Program-made: the position numbers and the translations under genes | In this document: in pieces, positions 889-26,733 of the stretch | Position numbering within the stretch: the stretch's first letter is position 1 | How the letters are laid out: every line of letters begins with the position of its first letter | Assembly: GCA_020723925.1 (NCBI GenBank) | Contig: DYHX01000009.1 | Span: 1-40,618 of the forward strand | From: Nitrospira japonica | GTDB taxonomy: Bacteria; Nitrospirota; Thermodesulfovibrionia; Thermodesulfovibrionales; DYHX01 | Length of the DNA: 40,618 bases | Reading direction: 5' to 3' | The notes under the pieces: generated by a model | Databases searched by the model: none | Told to the model about the DNA's origin: nothing | The model's input: the letters and a program-made list of their open reading frames with translations, nothing else

Positions 889-959
889 ACCCCGCACCTT
901 TCTGGTCGGGTATTGAACCATGTAAAAAGGTGCGGGATTATGGTAAAAAGGTGCGGGGT
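889..959. repeat. Palindromic GIY-YIG-linked element, solo copy (L-R-R form)
   Basis: The left end CCCCGCACCTTT begins at 890. Two right ends follow in tandem, AAAAAGGTGCGGGAT (924-938) and AAAAAGGTGCGGGG (945-958). The bases flanking the CCCC...GGGG unit are TGAA on both sides (886-889 and 959-962), an exact 4-bp duplication that also overlaps the gvpH stop and the next start codon. Without the element the site reads AGGGGTAAAAAGTGAATGG, which joins a ribosome binding site directly to the ATG of the ArsA-like gene. Confidence 0.8.
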
Positions 960-1909: not shown

Positions 1910-4126
1910 ATGAATATGAATAAAAAAGCAGATGCCATTACTTTAAAAGTAAAAGAGGCACTACCCAAGGATGTGGGCAGGGCAATAGCCAGGATAGACC
2001 CTGAAGATATGAAGAGGATTGAAGCTGAAGTGGGCGATATTATAGAGATAAGCGGAAAGAGAAGTGCTCCGGCAAAGGCGATGCCATGTTATATGGAAGA
2101 CAGGGGCAAAGGGATTGTTCAAATAGACGGTATTCTCCGGGAGAATGCTCAGATTGGACTGGACGAGAAGGCCACTATTAAAAAAGTATCTTATAAGCCT
2201 GCTGCAAGAATTACCCTTTCGCCTATAACCATAGGCGGCTTGCGAGGTGAAAGAGACACCCGATACATTGGCCGCCTTTTAGAGGGTCTTCCCCTGATGA
2301 GAGGAGATAGAGTCAGGGCTACCCTGTTTGGGGCAAGATCTTGTGATTTTAAGGTATTAGATACTATACCTGATAAAGAGGTAGTTTTAATTCACCCCAC
2401 TACTGTTATCAAGATGGAAGTAAAGGAGGGGGAGGAAAGACGGGGACTAAAAATATCTTATGAAGATATAGGCGGTTTAAGCAGACAGATACAGAGGATC
2501 AGAGAGATGATAGAATTGCCTCTTAAATATCCAGAGGTATTTGAAAGGTTGGGGATTAATGCACCAAAGGGGGTATTTTTGTATGGACCTCCAGGAACAG
2601 GTAAGACTCTGATTGCTCGAGCAGTGGCTAATGAAACAGAGGCATATTTCACCCACATAAGCGGCCCAGAGATAATGGGCAAGTTCTATGGAGAGTCTGA
2701 AGCCCGATTGAGAGGTGTATTTGAAGACGCGCAAAAACATGCCCCAGCCATAATCTTTATAGATGAGATAGACTCCATTGCACCTAAAAGAGAAGAGATG
2801 GGCGGGGAGAAGCAGGTTGAGCGGAGGGTTGTGGCTCAGCTCTTAGCCTTGATGGATGGATTAGAATCAAGGGGCGAGGTTATAGTGATAGCCGCAACCA
2901 ATATCCCTAATGTCATAGACCCGGCATTGAGGCGGCCGGGAAGATTTGATAGAGAGATTTCTATCCCTATCCCAGATAGAAATGGCCGCTTGGAGATACT
3001 CCATATTCATACGAGGGGAATGCCCCTGGCAGAAGATGCTCGCCCCCACACTAAAGATTTTGGTGGGGGGGTAAATCTTGAAAGGTTAGCAGATATTACA
3101 CATGGATTTGTAGGCGCTGACCTGGAGGCATTAGTTAGAGAGGCAGCGATGTCGGCCTTAAGAAAGATTCTACCTGAGATCGATTTTGAGCTGGCGGATA
3201 TTCCCTATGAAACACTCATGGAGCTTCAAGTAACTATGGATAATTTCTTAGAGGCGATGAAGGAAGTAGAACCCTCTGCTATACGGGAGTTTTTTGTAGA
3301 GGTGCCTGATGTCAAATGGGAGGATGTTGGAGGATTGGAAGAGATAAAGAGAGAGCTGATGGAGGCGATTGAATGGCCACTTAAATATCCTCAGCTTTTC
3401 AAAAAGGCTTATACCCAACCACCTAAGGGGATATTGTTATATGGTGCTCCTGGAACTGGAAAGACTTTATTAGCTAAGGCAGTAGCTAATGAGAGTGGGG
3501 TTAATTTCATTTCAGTCAAAGGGCCGAGTTTGATATCGAAGTATGTGGGGGAAAGCGAGCGTGGAATCCGTGAGGTCTTTAAAAAGGCAAAACAGGCATC
3601 GCCAACAATATTATTCTTTGACGAGATAGATAGTCTTGTGCCGAGAAGGGGCTCAAGTTCCACAGATGCCCATGTAACAGAACGGGTTATAAGCCAGTTT
3701 CTTACAGAGATGGATGGCATAGAGGAACTAAAAGGAGTAGTAGTTTTAGCCGCAACCAACAGGATAGATCTGATAGACCCTGCTCTTCTAAGGAGCGGCA
3801 GGTTTGACCTTTTGCTTGAGTTACCTTTGCCAGATGAGAAGACGAGGCTTAAGATTTTTAAGATACATACAAAAAATAAGCCTCTTGATAAAGATGTAAA
3901 TTTACAGGAATTTGCGAGGCAGACGGAAAATAAGGTTGGCTCTGATATTGAGTTTATCTGCCGAAAGGCATCAATGTTGGCGATAAGGGAATATATAAGT
4001 CGGGAGTCGGGAGTCGGGAGTCGGGAGTCAGAGCTTAAGATTTCAAAGAGGCATTTTGAAGGGGCTCTTGAGTTAGTCAAAGAGCAGCTTAAAGGCATTA
4101 GTAAAGAGGATGCCGGAGATGTTTAA
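1910..4126 (+). CDS. CDC48/p97/VAT-type AAA+ ATPase with two AAA domains
   Basis: This 738-residue unfoldase has an N-terminal CDC48-N-type double-psi barrel region (about 1-185) and two AAA modules. The first has Walker A GPPGTGKT near 226 and Walker B IIFIDEID. The second has Walker A GAPGTGKT near 512 and Walker B ILFFDEID, with an arginine-finger region SGRFD. Such proteins pull apart complexes or feed proteases. Double-AAA CDC48 is typical of archaea and rarer in bacteria, and here it sits within a gas vesicle cluster. Two insertions interrupt the usual sequence: residues about 377-387 ([11 protein letters not shown]) come from a palindromic element, and [12 protein letters not shown] near 697-708 comes from a tandem repeat. 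Both keep the frame. The frame is open throughout, so the protein is probably made. Confidence 0.9.
3038..3070. repeat. Palindromic element inserted in frame in the CDC48 gene
   Basis: CCCCCACACTAAAG (3043-3056) faces TTTTGGTGGGGGG. CDC48 relatives usually read about [17 protein letters not shown] here. This gene reads LAED, then eleven extra residues, then [13 protein letters not shown]. The extra 33 bases match the core of the palindrome family seen throughout the gvp cluster. Confidence 0.7.
3998..4030. repeat. Tandem GGGAGTC repeat read in frame in the CDC48 gene
   Basis: About four copies of a 7-base unit (GGGAGTC) encode [11 protein letters not shown] close to the C-terminus of the CDC48 protein. 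The repeat lies between the second AAA module's last helices and the tail, where an insertion is likely to be tolerated. It belongs to a class of AGT-like near-tandem repeats also present in tsaD, lolA and several gaps. Confidence 0.65.
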
Positions 4127-6879: not shown

Positions 6880-6890
6880 AATGGAAGGTA

Positions 6891-7233
6891 TACCCCACAC
6901 CTTTTCTATGTATTACGTCTACATTCTCAAGAATAATAATGATAATGGTGAATTATATATAGGCTCTACCAGTAATTTGAAGAGGAGGTTAGAGGAGCAT
7001 CAGAAAGGGAAGGTGTTTTCAACAAAGAAATTCCCTGTTGCGGGGTTTACCCTGGTTTATTATGAAGCATATGCTTCGGAAAAAGATGCCAGAATGCGTG
7101 AAGCGCGTTTGAAGCAGTTCGGTAAGGCATACCAAGAGTTAAAAAAACGAATTAGGGAGAGTTTAGAAGGTGTGAGAGTAAACCTCACACCTTTTACAGA
7201 AAACTCAAATGAATAATCAAAAGGTGTGGGGTA
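6891..7233 (+). mobile_element. GIY-YIG nuclease element with 15-bp terminal inverted repeats
   Basis: Perfect inverted ends TACCCCACACCTTTT (6891-6905) and AAAAGGTGTGGGGTA (7219-7233) enclose a complete GIY-YIG nuclease gene. Inside the right end is a second inward-facing pair, AAGGTGTGAG (7168-7177) and CTCACACCTTTT (about 7183-7194), so the element may be a nuclease unit abutting a solo palindrome. The left flank is ATGGAAGGTA and the right flank TATATATATC. Joining them across a single TA gives an uninterrupted gvpF start reading MEGIYIYGIVDT. The element therefore separates the original start codon at 6881 from its gene. Confidence 0.75.
6908..7216 (+). CDS. GIY-YIG endonuclease inside a palindrome-ended element
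   Basis: This 102-residue single-domain GIY-YIG protein has the first motif as YYVYIL, the second as LYIGSTSNLKRRLEEH (with the conserved arginine), and the downstream YYEAYASEKDARMREARLKQFG block carrying the likely metal-binding glutamate. Such nucleases cut DNA using one magnesium ion; small free-standing ones are common in bacterial genomes. The open frame can be read from the ATG at 6881, but those first nine residues are the stranded start of the neighbouring gvpF, so ATG 6908 just inside the left terminal repeat is preferred. The last 20 or so residues run through the right-hand repeats and are probably not part of the fold. It overlaps the present gvpF start by 8 bases. It most likely mobilises the flanking palindromes. 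Confidence 0.8.
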   Translation: MYYVYILKNNNDNGELYIGSTSNLKRRLEEHQKGKVFSTKKFPVAGFTLVYYEAYASEKDARMREARLKQFGKAYQELKKRIRESLEGVRVNLTPFTENSNE

Positions 7234-8324
7234 TATATATCTATGGTATTGTTGATACTGCAGAAGAGAAAAGTCTCGGCATTGCTGGAATCACTGCGTA
7301 TGGAGAGGTTTACCCCCACACCAAACCCCAACACCAAAAAACTTTGGTGTCGGGGAAAGATTTTGGTGCGGGGGTATATACAATTCCTTATCAGGATATA
7401 TCTGCAGTAGTAAGTGATTCAGAGATAGTCAACTATACCACTTTAGTTAAGGATGTTGTGGCAAGGTATCTTCTAAGACATCAGCAGGTAATCGAGAAGA
7501 TTATGGATTCTTACACCATTATCCCCATGAGGCTGGGCACCTATGCCTTTAACATAGAAGAGGTTACAGAGATTTTATGTAAGGGATATATGAAGTTTAA
7601 GGATATATTCAGAAAGATTGATAATAAGATTGAGATGGATGTAGTAGCAACATGGAATGATTTGAATTCAGTAATTAAAGAGATTGGCGAAGGACAGGAG
7701 ATTAAAGAGCTTAAAGAAAAACTGATGTCTACGCCCGAAGGCGTATCTTTTGAAGACCAGATAAAGATAGGCAGCTTTATTAAGAATATCTTAGATAAAA
7801 AAAGGGAGAAACTCGCTTCTGGGATAGGGGATGTTTTAGGAAAGGTGGGTACAGATATAAAAGCACATGACCTGATGGACGACAGGATGATTTTTAATGC
7901 CGCCTTTCTTATAGATAAAGACGAAAAGGCTGAATTCGAGAGAAGGTTAGATGAGCTGAATAAGCTTTACAATGAAAAAATAAATTTTAGATGTGTTGGA
8001 CCATTACCCACATATAGTTTTTATACTGCTGAGGTTAAGAAGATACCTTTTGATGAGATAGATCGGGCTAAAAAAAGATTGTGCCTGGATGATGTTATTA
8101 CTAAAGACGAGATAGAAAAGGCATACAGAAATTTAGTTCTTGCGTATCATCCTGATAGAAATCCAGGCAGGTCAGGCACAGAAGGACAATTCGATGAGAT
8201 AAATAAGGCATGTAAGTTACTTCTTGAATACATCATGTCTGCCGAACAGGCAGGCCAGGGGGAGGGATACCCCTTTAAAGAAGAATTTGCTAAGAATGCA
8301 ATTATTGTAAAGGTGAGAGACTGA
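7209..8324 (+). CDS. gvpF: GvpF/GvpL gas vesicle protein fused to a C-terminal J-domain
   Basis: Residues about 8-275 match the GvpL/GvpF family: IYIYGIVDT start, AVVSD block, HQQVIEKIMDSYTIIPMRLGT, and the final FRCVGPLPTYSFYT. Residues about 285-345 form a J-domain with the diagnostic HPD at 314-316 (AYHPDRN). J-domains stimulate Hsp70 ATPase activity, so this protein may bring DnaK to the nascent gas vesicle. GvpF contacts GvpA during assembly and its usual length is about 210-270 residues; here it is 371. Residues about 35-56 (22 extra) come from a palindromic element inserted in frame. The original start codon is at 6881, cut off by the nuclease element. The present start, ATG 7209, lies inside that element and has no clear ribosome binding site, so expression may be reduced or coupled to the nuclease. 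Confidence 0.85.
   Translation: MNNQKVWGIYIYGIVDTAEEKSLGIAGITAYGEVYPHTKPQHQKTLVSGKDFGAGVYTIPYQDISAVVSDSEIVNYTTLVKDVVARYLLRHQQVIEKIMDSYTIIPMRLGTYAFNIEEVTEILCKGYMKFKDIFRKIDNKIEMDVVATWNDLNSVIKEIGEGQEIKELKEKLMSTPEGVSFEDQIKIGSFIKNILDKKREKLASGIGDVLGKVGTDIKAHDLMDDRMIFNAAFLIDKDEKAEFERRLDELNKLYNEKINFRCVGPLPTYSFYTAEVKKIPFDEIDRAKKRLCLDDVITKDEIEKAYRNLVLAYHPDRNPGRSGTEGQFDEINKACKLLLEYIMSAEQAGQGEGYPFKEEFAKNAIIVKVRD
7311..7376. repeat. Nested palindromic element inserted in frame in gvpF
   Basis: The outer pair is TACCCCCACACCAAA (7311-7325) with TTTTGGTGCGGGGGTA (7361-7376). The inner pair is CCCCAACACCAAA (7327-7339) with TTTGGTGTCGGGG (7343-7355). The flanks TTTA and TATA resemble a 4-bp duplication with one change. 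Removing 66 bases restores GEVYTIPYQDI, which aligns with GDEVYTICFRDI and GDEVLTIGYDEL in the paralogues. Confidence 0.8.
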
Positions 8325-8325
8325 C

Positions 8326-9132
8326 ATGGAACAGGAAGGAAAATATATCTATTGTATTATTGGCACAAAACAGGAAAGAAACTTCGGCCCCCTTGGCATC
8401 GGAGGTAGGGGTGATGAGGTCTTAACCATTGGCTACGATGAGCTAAGTATGGTTGTAAGCAATCATCCTATGACCAGATTCGTTGTGAATCGGGAGAATA
8501 TGTTGGCTCATGAAAAGGTGATTGAAGAAGTGATGAAGGAATTTGATAGTGTGCTTCCAGTCAGGTTTGGCACTATTGCCTCTAATGCCGATGAGATAAG
8601 GAATCTCTTAGATAGAAGATACAGAGAATTTAAGAATCTTTTAAGGGATATGGACCATAAAGTGGAATTAGGCGTTAAAGGAATATGGAAAAGTATGGAT
8701 ATTATTTTTAAAGAGATTGTAGAAGAGAACAAAGAAATTAAGGAGTTGAAAGAAAAAATCCAAAAGCCCCCACACCAATTGAGTAACAAATCGGTTAATA
8801 AAACAATTGGTGTGGGGGCAAAGATGGAAGTGGGTAAGATGGTTGAGAGAGCTTTAGTAAATAAAAAAGAGAGGGAGGCTGAAAGATTTGTAGATGTCCT
8901 AAGAAGGACATCTGTTGACTACAGGCTCAATAAGACCATCAGTAATGAGATGTTTATGAATGCCGCCTTCTTAATAGATAAAGGACGAGAGAGAGAGTTT
9001 GATAACCTAATAGGTGATTTAAGCGATGAATATGATGAATATAAGGATAGGATAAGGTTTATGTATGTCGGTCCCTTACCTGTGTTTAACTTTGTCAACA
9101 TCGTTATTTATCCTGAGGAATGGGAAAGGTAG
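8326..9132 (+). CDS. gvpF: GvpF/GvpL family gas vesicle protein
   Basis: This 268-residue GvpL/GvpF protein starts EGKYIYCIIGTKQ, followed by FGPLGIGGRGDEV, MVVSNHP, NMLAHEKVIEEVMKEFDSVLPVRFGT and the C-terminal MYVGPLPVFNFVNI. It is one of four paralogues in this cluster. It starts one base after the previous gene's stop, with AAGGTGAG about nine bases upstream, and no repeat lies at its 5' end, so this is the paralogue with the original start intact. It has an 18-residue insertion near 148-165 (PPHQLSN...GVGA) from a palindromic element. GvpF/L proteins are accessory assembly proteins found with GvpA at vesicle tips or during nucleation. Confidence 0.88.
   Translation: MEQEGKYIYCIIGTKQERNFGPLGIGGRGDEVLTIGYDELSMVVSNHPMTRFVVNRENMLAHEKVIEEVMKEFDSVLPVRFGTIASNADEIRNLLDRRYREFKNLLRDMDHKVELGVKGIWKSMDIIFKEIVEENKEIKELKEKIQKPPHQLSNKSVNKTIGVGAKMEVGKMVERALVNKKEREAERFVDVLRRTSVDYRLNKTISNEMFMNAAFLIDKGREREFDNLIGDLSDEYDEYKDRIRFMYVGPLPVFNFVNIVIYPEEWER
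8766..8819. repeat. Palindromic element inserted in frame in the second gvpF
   Basis: GCCCCCACACCAATT (8766-8780) and AATTGGTGTGGGGGC (8805-8819) form a perfect 15-bp inverted pair around a 24-base AT-rich spacer. Removing the 54 bases leaves IQKKMEVGKMVERAL, close to the third paralogue's TYYQRTEIGRMVEDAL. The insertion keeps the frame and contains no stop in the reading frame used. Confidence 0.8.
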
Positions 9133-9163
9133 AAGATATAAAAGATGTCTATTGAAGGGAAAA

Positions 9164-9269
9164 CCCCACACCTTTTATCATTTTATTATATGTGTGGCGT
9201 TATCAAGAAAAATAATGGACTATATATAAACTTAAAAAACGAATTAGGGAGTGTTTAAAAGGTGTGGGG
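9164..9269 (+). mobile_element. Internally deleted relative of the GIY-YIG element
   Basis: The ends are CCCCACACCTTTT (9164-9176) and AAAAGGTGTGGGG (9257-9269). Between them, FYYMCGVIKKNNGLYI can be read, a decayed form of the nuclease start YYVYILKNNNDNGELYIG. Bases 9232-9262 closely match 7139-7172 near the end of the nuclease gene (shared CGAATTAGGGAG). The middle of the nuclease gene is missing. The flanks are AAAA and TAAA. The element separates ATG 9145 (MSIEGK) from the body of the third gvpF. Confidence 0.8.
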
Positions 9270-10017
9270 TAAATATATTTATTGCATAACAGAGACGGAT
9301 GGTTCGTCGGAGCGGTTTGGTCCTCTGGGTATCGGGGGCAGGGGCGATGAGGTATATACGATATGCTTTCGAGATATAGGAGCAGTGGTTAGTGATTCTC
9401 CGATTAAAAGATATCCTGTATCAAGGGAAAATATGCTTGCCCATGAGAAGGCGATTGAAGAGGTGATGAAGGCTCACACAATTCTACCTGTAAGATTCGC
9501 CACAATTGCCGAAGATGAAGAGAAGGTTAATAAGATATTGAAAAAAGAGCACGATAGATTTGTAGATTCATTAAAAAATATCAAAGGCAAAAAGGAACTC
9601 GGGTTAAAAGTGGTATTTAAAGAGGAGGTTATATATAAAGAGATATTAGAAAAATACGAAGATATAAGGATATTAAAAGAAAAAGTCGCAGCATTGCCTC
9701 CTGAGAAGACATATTATCAACGTACGGAAATAGGAAGGATGGTTGAGGATGCCTTACAAAAAGAGAAAGAGATTTATAAAGAGGATATTTTAAATACCCT
9801 ATCGCCTCTGGCATTAGAAGTGAAGACCAATAATACCTATGGCGAGCGGATGATTATCAATGCTGCCTTTTTGGTAGAGAAAGATAGAGAAGCAGGGTTT
9901 GACCAAAAGGTAAATGACCTTGGCGCAAAATATGGGGAAAAGATAAAATTCAAATATGTGGGGACACTGCCGCTATTTAATTTTATTAATTTAACAATAA
10001 ATGTAGGAGAGTATTAA
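9262..10017 (+). CDS. gvpF: GvpF/GvpL family gas vesicle protein, start altered by an element
   Basis: This 251-residue GvpL/GvpF paralogue shares GKYIYCITETD, FGPLGIGGRGDEVYTI, NMLAHEKAIEEVMKAHTILPVRFAT and the end KYVGTLPLFNFINLTI with its neighbours. The present start is GTG 9262, which lies in the right end of a mobile palindrome and has no convincing ribosome binding site. The likely original start is ATG 9145: ATG TCT ATT GAA GGG AAA, continued across the insertion by TAT ATT TAT TGC, giving MSIEGKYIYCI, which fits the second paralogue. The frame itself is intact, so the protein may be made at lower level from the GTG. It has no insertion in its body and is a good reference for spotting insertions in the others. 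Confidence 0.85.
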   Translation: MWGKYIYCITETDGSSERFGPLGIGGRGDEVYTICFRDIGAVVSDSPIKRYPVSRENMLAHEKAIEEVMKAHTILPVRFATIAEDEEKVNKILKKEHDRFVDSLKNIKGKKELGLKVVFKEEVIYKEILEKYEDIRILKEKVAALPPEKTYYQRTEIGRMVEDALQKEKEIYKEDILNTLSPLALEVKTNNTYGERMIINAAFLVEKDREAGFDQKVNDLGAKYGEKIKFKYVGTLPLFNFINLTINVGEY

Positions 10018-10097
10018 CCCCGCACCTTTTACAGTATTCAAAGATGCAATTTCTTGAATATAAAAGGTTCGGGGTGAAAGTCTCAAAAGGTGCGGGG
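10018..10097. repeat. Palindromic element between gvpF and gvpG (L-R-R form)
   Basis: The left end CCCCGCACCTTTT begins at 10018. Two right ends follow, AAAAGGTTCGGGGT (about 10062-10075) and AAAAGGTGCGGGG (10085-10097). TTAA flanks the unit exactly on both sides (10014-10017 and 10098-10101). Without it the site reads TAGGAGAGTATTAAAAGTG, placing a ribosome binding site before the gvpG GTG. Confidence 0.82.
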
Positions 10098-11647: not shown

Positions 11648-12208
11648 ATGATTAGCAAAAACGACAACGTGACATTGGTGGATGCCCTGGATAAGGTCTT
11701 AGAAAAGGGTGCAGTTATTAATGGAGAAATAGCAATAAGAGTAGCTGATGTGGACCTTGTTTTTTTAGGTCTAAGGCTTATCCTTACATCAATTTCCAAG
11801 GCAGAGGAGGTATCAGGTAAAAGTTTTAGTAATCCCGACAGAGAATTTACCCCGCACCAATCTGGTGCGGGGTTTACTCCAGAGGATATAGAATACATAG
11901 AAAGATTACAAAGAGAGATAAGAAAGGCAGAAGAGAATATCCCTAAACTTATTAATCTCAATAGCCCCAGAGAGACAGAGCAAGGTTTAGCTAAATTAAT
12001 TTTGACCCTCGTTGAATTAATAAGAAAACTTTTGGAGAAAGAAGCCTTCAGAAGAATAAAGAGGGGAACACTTTCCCCGGTAGAAATTCAAAAATTAGGA
12101 TTGAGCCTTAAGGCAGTAAAGAAAAAGATAAAAGAGATTCAGGCAATCTTTGGTATCGAGGATGAAGATTTAAATTTAGATTTGGGTCCCTTAGGGAATT
12201 TGATGTAA
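11648..12208 (+). CDS. gvpK: GvpA/J-type domain fused to GvpK
   Basis: The protein is 186 residues. Residues about 8-58 resemble the GvpA/GvpJ/GvpS fold (TLVDALDKVLEKGAVINGEI, then RVADVDLVFLGLRLILTSI), the hydrophobic shell-forming helix-strand unit. Residues about 77-186 match GvpK: YIERLQREIRKAEENIPKLI, then ETEQGLAKLILTLVELIRKLLEKEA and RRIKRGTLSPVEIQKLGL. GvpK is usually a separate protein of about 90-120 residues encoded next to a small GvpA-like protein. Here the junction (residues 68-76) is encoded by a palindromic element with exact TTTA flanks, but the frame without it also runs through, so the fusion may predate the insertion. GAGG eight bases upstream supports ATG 11648. Confidence 0.82.
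   Translation: MISKNDNVTLVDALDKVLEKGAVINGEIAIRVADVDLVFLGLRLILTSISKAEEVSGKSFSNPDREFTPHQSGAGFTPEDIEYIERLQREIRKAEENIPKLINLNSPRETEQGLAKLILTLVELIRKLLEKEAFRRIKRGTLSPVEIQKLGLSLKAVKKKIKEIQAIFGIEDEDLNLDLGPLGNLM
11850..11872. repeat. Minimal palindromic element at the GvpJ-GvpK junction
   Basis: CCCCGCACC, loop AATCT, GGTGCGGGG: 23 bases, the shortest copy. TTTA flanks it exactly (11846-11849 and 11873-11876). The insertion totals 27 bases and encodes PHQSGAGFT. Without it the protein reads DREFTPEDIEYIERL, so the frame stays open. Confidence 0.85.
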
Positions 12209-26670: not shown

Positions 26671-26733
26671 AAAGATGCAGATATGGTGAACCCCACACCA
26701 CGTTGGTGTGGGGTTCACCATGTCTGCATCTTT
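26671..26733. repeat. 63-base near-perfect palindrome with the gvp-element core
   Basis: Two 30-base arms (26671-26700 and 26704-26733) pair with one mismatch around the loop CGT. The centre, CCCCACACCA...TGGTGTGGGG, is the same core as the elements in the gvp cluster over 14 kb away. The arms extend beyond the usual core (GATGCAGATATGGTGAA). It lies between argD and argF. Confidence 0.8.

Follow-up and report, generated by a model that had tools for sequence, protein, structure and literature searches.

A 106-bp insert at a gvpF start as a probable deletion derivative of a small insertion-sequence-like element with a GIY-YIG nuclease gene

The start of the third gvpF gene (gvpF3) in the window, by which we mean the whole 40,618-nt stretch of DNA analysed here, is separated from the gene body by 106 bp at 9164-9269, and the locus raises the question of what this insert is and from what it descended. 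The original prediction had placed it between the ATG at 9145 and the gvpF3 body, a placement borne out by relatives in which EGKYIYCI is unbroken, and had taken it for an internally deleted offspring of the nuclease element at gvpF1. We regard the insert, with a probability of about 0.8, as an internally deleted, non-autonomous member of an insertion-sequence-like family whose full form is about 290 bp and contains a single standalone GIY-YIG gene.

The inverted ends of the full-length unit are CCCCNCACC(TTTT)/(AAAA)GGTGNGGGG. The insert shares its 13-nt inverted ends with the nuclease element, and these ends give a unit of exactly 106 bp as predicted, and the 14-nt extended end ACCCCRCACCTTTT occurs in seven exact copies in the 1.87-Mb genome, every one of them in the contig of the window. 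When the ends were stripped, the 23-nt block at 9234-9256 was identical to 7142-7164 of the nuclease element at 22 of 23 positions, and the collinear score of the two units was 34.3, whereas 2000 dinucleotide shuffles reached at most 26.4. In a BLAST search at the DNA level the region 9234-9273 was matched by the nuclease element with an E value of 4.6e-8, its own genome otherwise giving the element itself alone, and a search with the nuclease element DNA through 177 genomes of the order returned only itself, its orthologue in genome G714 and 9234-9273. Of the traces of both nuclease parts that had been claimed, the 5' one is weak alone (p ~0.05) but collinear, and the frame opened by the host ATG runs into it in phase (MSIEGK..FYYMCGVIKKNNGLYI); the nuclease element is likewise read in phase from the host ATG (MEGIPHTFSMYYVYILK). 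It could be argued that the two units have only their ends in common, the interior likeness being due to chance or to convergent selection of a ribosome-binding site, as GGGAG, a putative site of this kind for GTG 9262, precedes that GTG in the 3' block and the 5' trace is marginal. The E value of the 3' block, a collinear score beyond all shuffles and the longer nuclease sequence that is retained at the gvpF2 orthologue by an independent derivative make this very improbable, and taken together the shared blocks are better than chance.

The best reading of these findings, which they support, is that the 106-bp sequence stems from the nuclease element and became non-autonomous by internal deletion, although its direct parent may be a sister copy since lost. 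As in miniature inverted-repeat transposable elements (MITEs), the unit is short and gene-less, has terminal inverted repeats (13/13 nt) and derives, on the above evidence, from a longer coding element of its own genome that lost its interior; the coding partner here is a GIY-YIG element of about 290 bp and not an insertion sequence with a DDE or HUH transposase. The target duplication expected of a MITE is imperfect at this unit (AAAA/TAAA), which speaks against the reading, and exact at sister units. The left AAAA is probably a decayed copy of TAAA; one substitution and one insertion separate this flank, taken with one further base, from the TAAA found in the empty site.

The right border of the nuclease element had been predicted at 7233. 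This was dropped in favour of 7178, because the 106-bp unit aligns at its right end to an inner, decayed end (GGTGTGAGAG) at 7169-7178, and the element therefore spans 6893-7178 (Table 1). This 286-bp element is presumed to be autonomous. In G714, gvpF1 shows the same tandem order, with TAAA, nuclease element, TAAA, 49-bp unit and TAAA. The sole ORF of the element is a PF01541 GIY-YIG protein, its fold being settled by Pfam and PDB sequence matches, and the element encodes no DDE, HUH, serine or tyrosine transposase; dN/dS between the window and G714 is 0.18, which indicates purifying selection. Inverted ends, a target duplication of fixed length and sharp borders were found in the element family, as in insertion sequences.

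Table 1. Coordinates of the features at the gvpF starts and of related units in the window
Feature	Position	Strand	Remarks
Related unit	890..958	+	Duplication TGAA/TGAA
Target duplication TATA, left copy	6889..6892	+	Right copy 7232-7235; empty site GAAGGTATATATATC in G074
GIY-YIG element	6893..7178	+	286 bp; ends CCCCACACCTTTT / AAGGTGTGAGAG; length typical of 51 relatives
GIY-YIG nuclease ORF	6908..7216	+	PF01541 E 2.2e-16; open also from host ATG 6881 (MEGIPHTFSMYYVY..)
TAAA between the two tandem units	7179..7182	+	Same in G714
Second unit, 49 bp	7183..7231	+	Last 44 nt identical in G714
Related unit, 62 bp, in frame inside gvpF1	7313..7374	+	Flanks TTTA/TATA; 22 aa absent in G074
Original start codon of gvpF3	9145..9147	+	Reads MSIEGKTPHLLSFYYMCGVIKKNNGLYINLKNELGSV*KVWGKYIYCI
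Left flank of 106-bp unit, AAAA	9160..9163	+	Right copy TAAA; empty sites in relatives GAAGG-TAAA-TATA
Probable non-autonomous unit	9164..9269	+	106 bp; ends CCCCACACCTTTT / AAAAGGTGTGGGG; collinear with nuclease element
Left terminal inverted repeat of 106-bp unit	9164..9176	+	13/13 complementary to 9257-9269
Putative remnant of nuclease 5' part (..YYMCGVIKKNNGLYI..)	9177..9233	+	Collinear alignment; weak alone, p ~0.05
Putative remnant of nuclease 3' part (AAAAAACGAATTAGGGAGTGTTT)	9234..9256	+	22/23 to 7142-7164
Right terminal inverted repeat of 106-bp unit	9257..9269	+	Holds GTG 9262
gvpF3 from restart GTG in right end	9262..10017	+	Pfam PF06386 E 8.5e-69
Target duplication TAAA, right copy, 106-bp unit	9270..9273	+	
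Related unit before gvpG	10018..10097	+	Duplication TTAA/TTAA
Minimal palindrome, 23 bp, in frame in gvpA/K gene	11850..11872	+	TTTA/TTTA; absent in G638, present in G714
gvpF-start target sequence			GAAGGTAAATATAT

The empty sites were provided by G074, in which the gvpF1 start GAAGGTATATATATC and the gvpF2 start GAAGGTAAATATATC are uninterrupted. The gvpF1 of the window equals the G074 site with TATA duplicated, and the gvpF2 start is occupied by a 115-bp unit in G638 and by a 79-bp unit in G714, with TAAA duplicated; the borders of the units and their target duplications are thus established by sequence comparison, which also showed that gvpF starts (GAAGG-TNNA-TATAT) have been struck repeatedly. 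The 115-bp unit reads DARMREGHMKQLGKTSQELEQCLKESLKGVG and retains the final ~35 nuclease codons (core score 43 versus a shuffle maximum of 27.9), while no significant nuclease interior was found by the core score in the 79-bp unit. Judged by its sequence, the 115-bp unit is an intermediate deletion form of the kind that the original prediction had proposed to look for, and full units together with many units of 67-165 bp that have identical ends were found in genomes of Patescibacteria.

These occupied starts could also be explained by a homing endonuclease gene, in which the nuclease would cut empty gvpF starts and be copied in by recombination, the inverted ends being incidental. GIY-YIG is a homing nuclease fold, and in the order of the window the element is found at gvpF1 only, in two genomes with different duplications (TAAA versus TATA), as if it had been inserted independently at orthologous sites. 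Homing, however, neither duplicates its target nor requires inverted ends, and both features are found here. The copies in one Patescibacteria genome lie at unrelated sites, and units that have these ends but no gene are scattered, which renders this explanation improbable. A group I or group II intron, or another intervening sequence spliced from the gvpF RNA, was considered as well, since the joined sequence restores EGKYIYCI and the 106-bp unit folds stably as RNA, its ends pairing in a stem that holds GTG 9262 (z -5.7). Rfam returned no family at the gathering score, no intron RNA structure was recognised, and splicing need not be invoked given the TNNA duplication and the other starts available in phase, so that such an origin is scarcely credible.

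The inserts may alter how gvpF is translated. The old start of gvpF3 reads MSIEGK..GSV up to a stop at 9256-9258, and the GTG at 9262 leads in the same phase into WGKYIYCI. The gene need not be dead, because this GTG inside the right end can restart translation in the same phase, and the host may retain gvpF function because the right end gives a new start (GTG 9262 in gvpF3 and ATG 7209 in gvpF1). The ATG at 7209 is provided by the 49-bp unit and overlaps the nuclease stop (ATGAATAA). From the old gvpF1 start the open frame continues into the nuclease (MEGIPHTFSMYYVY; in G714 MEAKPHTFYYVYV, without a further ATG), and the old start codon could drive the nuclease frame. Two gene fusions were also noticed in this region, of GvpF1 with a DnaJ domain (7209-8324) and of a GvpA-like domain with GvpK (11648-12208).

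The nearest homologues of the nuclease among named records are from Patescibacteria, and when a class was sampled around one such homologue, at least one homologue was found in 205 of 286 genomes. The window nuclease grouped with 49 Patescibacteria sequences (group of 51, support 90/95), a placement that fits horizontal transfer. Inverted ends of this type, such as ACCCCGCACCTTTT, lie close on either side of the nuclease genes in these genomes, and the family unit can be described as CCCCNCACC...GGTGNGGGG flanking one GIY-YIG gene over about 260-320 bp. Inverted ends at a score of 12 or more bracketed 37/55 and 28/39 nuclease loci, mostly in Patescibacteria, as against ~2% for cross-pairs. Among 51 distinct elements with ends starting in CCC, the length was mostly 258-320 bp and an exact 4-bp flank duplication was present in 23 (null mean 2.4, maximum 9 in 20,000 shuffles), with T as the first base in 91% and a purine as the fourth in 100% of the duplications. 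Comparison of the sequences shows that the unit inserts beside a tetranucleotide and duplicates it, the duplicated bases being TNNR in nearly all cases. Mobility is seen by comparison in G159, where two copies are identical at 290 of 307 positions inside and at ~30% outside, with the duplications TGTG and TAAG. The nucleases of the family are under purifying selection (dN/dS mostly 0.03-0.12), and ends and nuclease diverge together (Mantel r 0.48; maximum 0.16 in 5000 permutations), which simple linkage would explain too. GIY-YIG proteins were found in the viral contigs searched, none of them with CCCC ends. A subfamily with CCCCTCAC ends has 7-bp duplications ending in TAG and lies beside tRNA genes in the cases checked; at seven loci the elements adjoin the 5' end of tRNA genes, and the GGGG end of such elements appears to rebuild the tRNA start.

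Full and miniature copies were found by comparison to have common ends within a genome. The 0.6-Mb genome G243 contains 12 paired units, of which two are full (310 and 286 bp) and 10 short (110-165 bp), and every end but one has a partner; G312 contains one full unit (305 bp) and five short ones (67-134 bp). The inner arms match their own partner at 84% and those of other units at 31%, as expected of hairpin-forming DNA. At five loci of G243, full and short units have differing interiors and identical outer flanks, as if the interiors had been exchanged inside one larger repeat. The many units without any gene would also be accounted for if a transposase of some known class, encoded elsewhere, mobilised all the units in trans as MITEs and the GIY-YIG gene were cargo, and DDE elements do typically have terminal inverted repeats and fixed 4-bp duplications. 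Against this, the units delimited by such end pairs range from 67 to 310 bp in G243 and G312, none being longer, and are too short for a known transposase; among the paired ends of these two genomes none enclosed a long autonomous transposase, and the only ORF of the family that recurs across distant phyla is the nuclease, which is kept by purifying selection. We therefore consider an unlinked transposase rather unlikely.

Dispersal of the ends was also evident in the genome of the window, where CCCCRCACC occurs in 128 copies as against 16 for the reversed control. A 4-bp duplication was found at 18 of 28 distinct short palindromes of this genome (null 3.5, maximum 12), some of which share flanks and are not independent; the shortest unit is the 23-bp palindrome at 11850-11872. 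In-frame palindromes were further seen at 3040-3075 in a Cdc48-like AAA ATPase gene, where the insert is missing from G074, and at 8764-8821 in a stretch of gvpF2 that is variable among relatives. A longer dispersed palindromic repeat (AAAGATGCAGATATGGTGAACCCCACACC-ACGTT-GGTGTGGGG..) was noted at 26691-26713 of the window and at seven further loci, its right half being symmetric in some copies and different in others. Nine contigs of G000 terminate in CCCCACACC palindromes; the assembly is therefore broken at this repeat, and the count of its copies is too low.

A second nuclease clade, marked by GFT(K/E)(K/R)Y, has other palindromes on its flanks. We collected 29 GFT-type genes from the order of the window and from records of Azospirillum, Neorhizobium, Shinella and Aeromonas, and 14 of them had facing C/TGTC-tagged palindromes on both sides where background density predicts 0.005, although the loci share ancestry and the probability figure therefore overstates their independence. 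Some genes of the clade have no bracketing palindromes; the observation comes from loci L022-L042, L317, L320, L326 and L329. These palindromes, in distinction to the window unit, have the features of CGTC-REPs, namely a C/TGTC tag, a stem of 8-9 bp beginning with AT and a CCA tail, and they are scattered through the same genomes, often as facing pairs. In Azospirillum lipoferum 4B AZO_p3 (L320) a GIY-YIG gene with identical flanking CGTC-REPs lies between sufB and sufC. According to a 2013 survey, CGTC-REPs lack a dedicated transposase (PMC3733652). CGTC-tagged REPs, including the Rickettsia RPEs (PMC3733652), resemble the window family in forming in-frame palindromes within genes and they bracket the sister nuclease clade, but the window family has CCCCNCACC ends in place of CGTC tags.

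We infer that the GIY-YIG protein is the mobilising enzyme, because it is encoded by the only gene of the unit, the ends diverge with this gene and such ends were not found around any longer unit. The paired ends that it would recognise probably take the form of a hairpin or cruciform, which is plausible given the Slx1-like kinship of the protein and the fact that Slx1 cuts branched DNA. The nuclease would then cut the target with a 4-nt stagger, and host repair would seal a copy of the element into it; the miniatures may be moved in trans by the nuclease or formed in place by deletion and gap repair. No GIY-YIG enzyme is known to join DNA, and known examples leave overhangs of 1-2 nt and not 4, so that the chemistry would need the help of the host and host repair would have to finish the insertion. 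The wider proposal is that Slx1-like standalone GIY-YIG nucleases mobilise a new minimal class of transposons, with one clade serving CCCCNCACC units of ~290 bp and miniatures of 23-165 bp at TNNR and the sister clade serving CGTC-REPs, and we lean towards it with limited confidence.

REP/REPIN sequences with RAYT (TnpA-REP) tyrosine transposases (PMC3733652; PMC2817692) are likewise dispersed palindromes that also bracket a single-copy nuclease gene, but they have a GTAG tag and an HUH tyrosine enzyme where the present units have CCCCNCACC ends, a 4-bp duplication and a GIY-YIG protein, and the units do not belong with them. Prokaryotic standalone GIY-YIG proteins have been classed as Slx1-like (PMC1564403) and share with the present nuclease a minimal single domain of ~100 aa (PDB 1zg2), although the papers searched did not link them earlier to inverted ends, duplications or miniatures. 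Non-intron insertions in rRNA genes of CPR bacteria carry GIY-YIG ORFs, inverted repeats not being mentioned in the text of that paper (PMC11270868), and a survey of horizontal transfer reported GIY-YIG genes passed from Patescibacteria to other bacteria (PMC12455944); both are compatible with the element family. In the open-access literature searched, no link of GIY-YIG genes to REPs or to bacterial inverted ends with duplications was found. The results suggest an undescribed and exceptionally small transposon class. If the nuclease moves the units, this class would lie outside the known enzyme families and, at ~290 bp, below the 0.8-2 kb of insertion sequences (PMC3733652). Widespread palindromic repeats, CGTC-REPs included, would then have their first candidate for an enzyme; in-frame palindromic inserts in bacterial genes and short inserts that replace start codons would be explained, and all of this could be tested with a single small protein and short DNAs as substrates. 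A second GIY-YIG gene in the genome of the window (L002:1418-1811, contig C83) is flanked by a different palindrome, TTGTCATTGCGAGG..GAAGCAATCTC.
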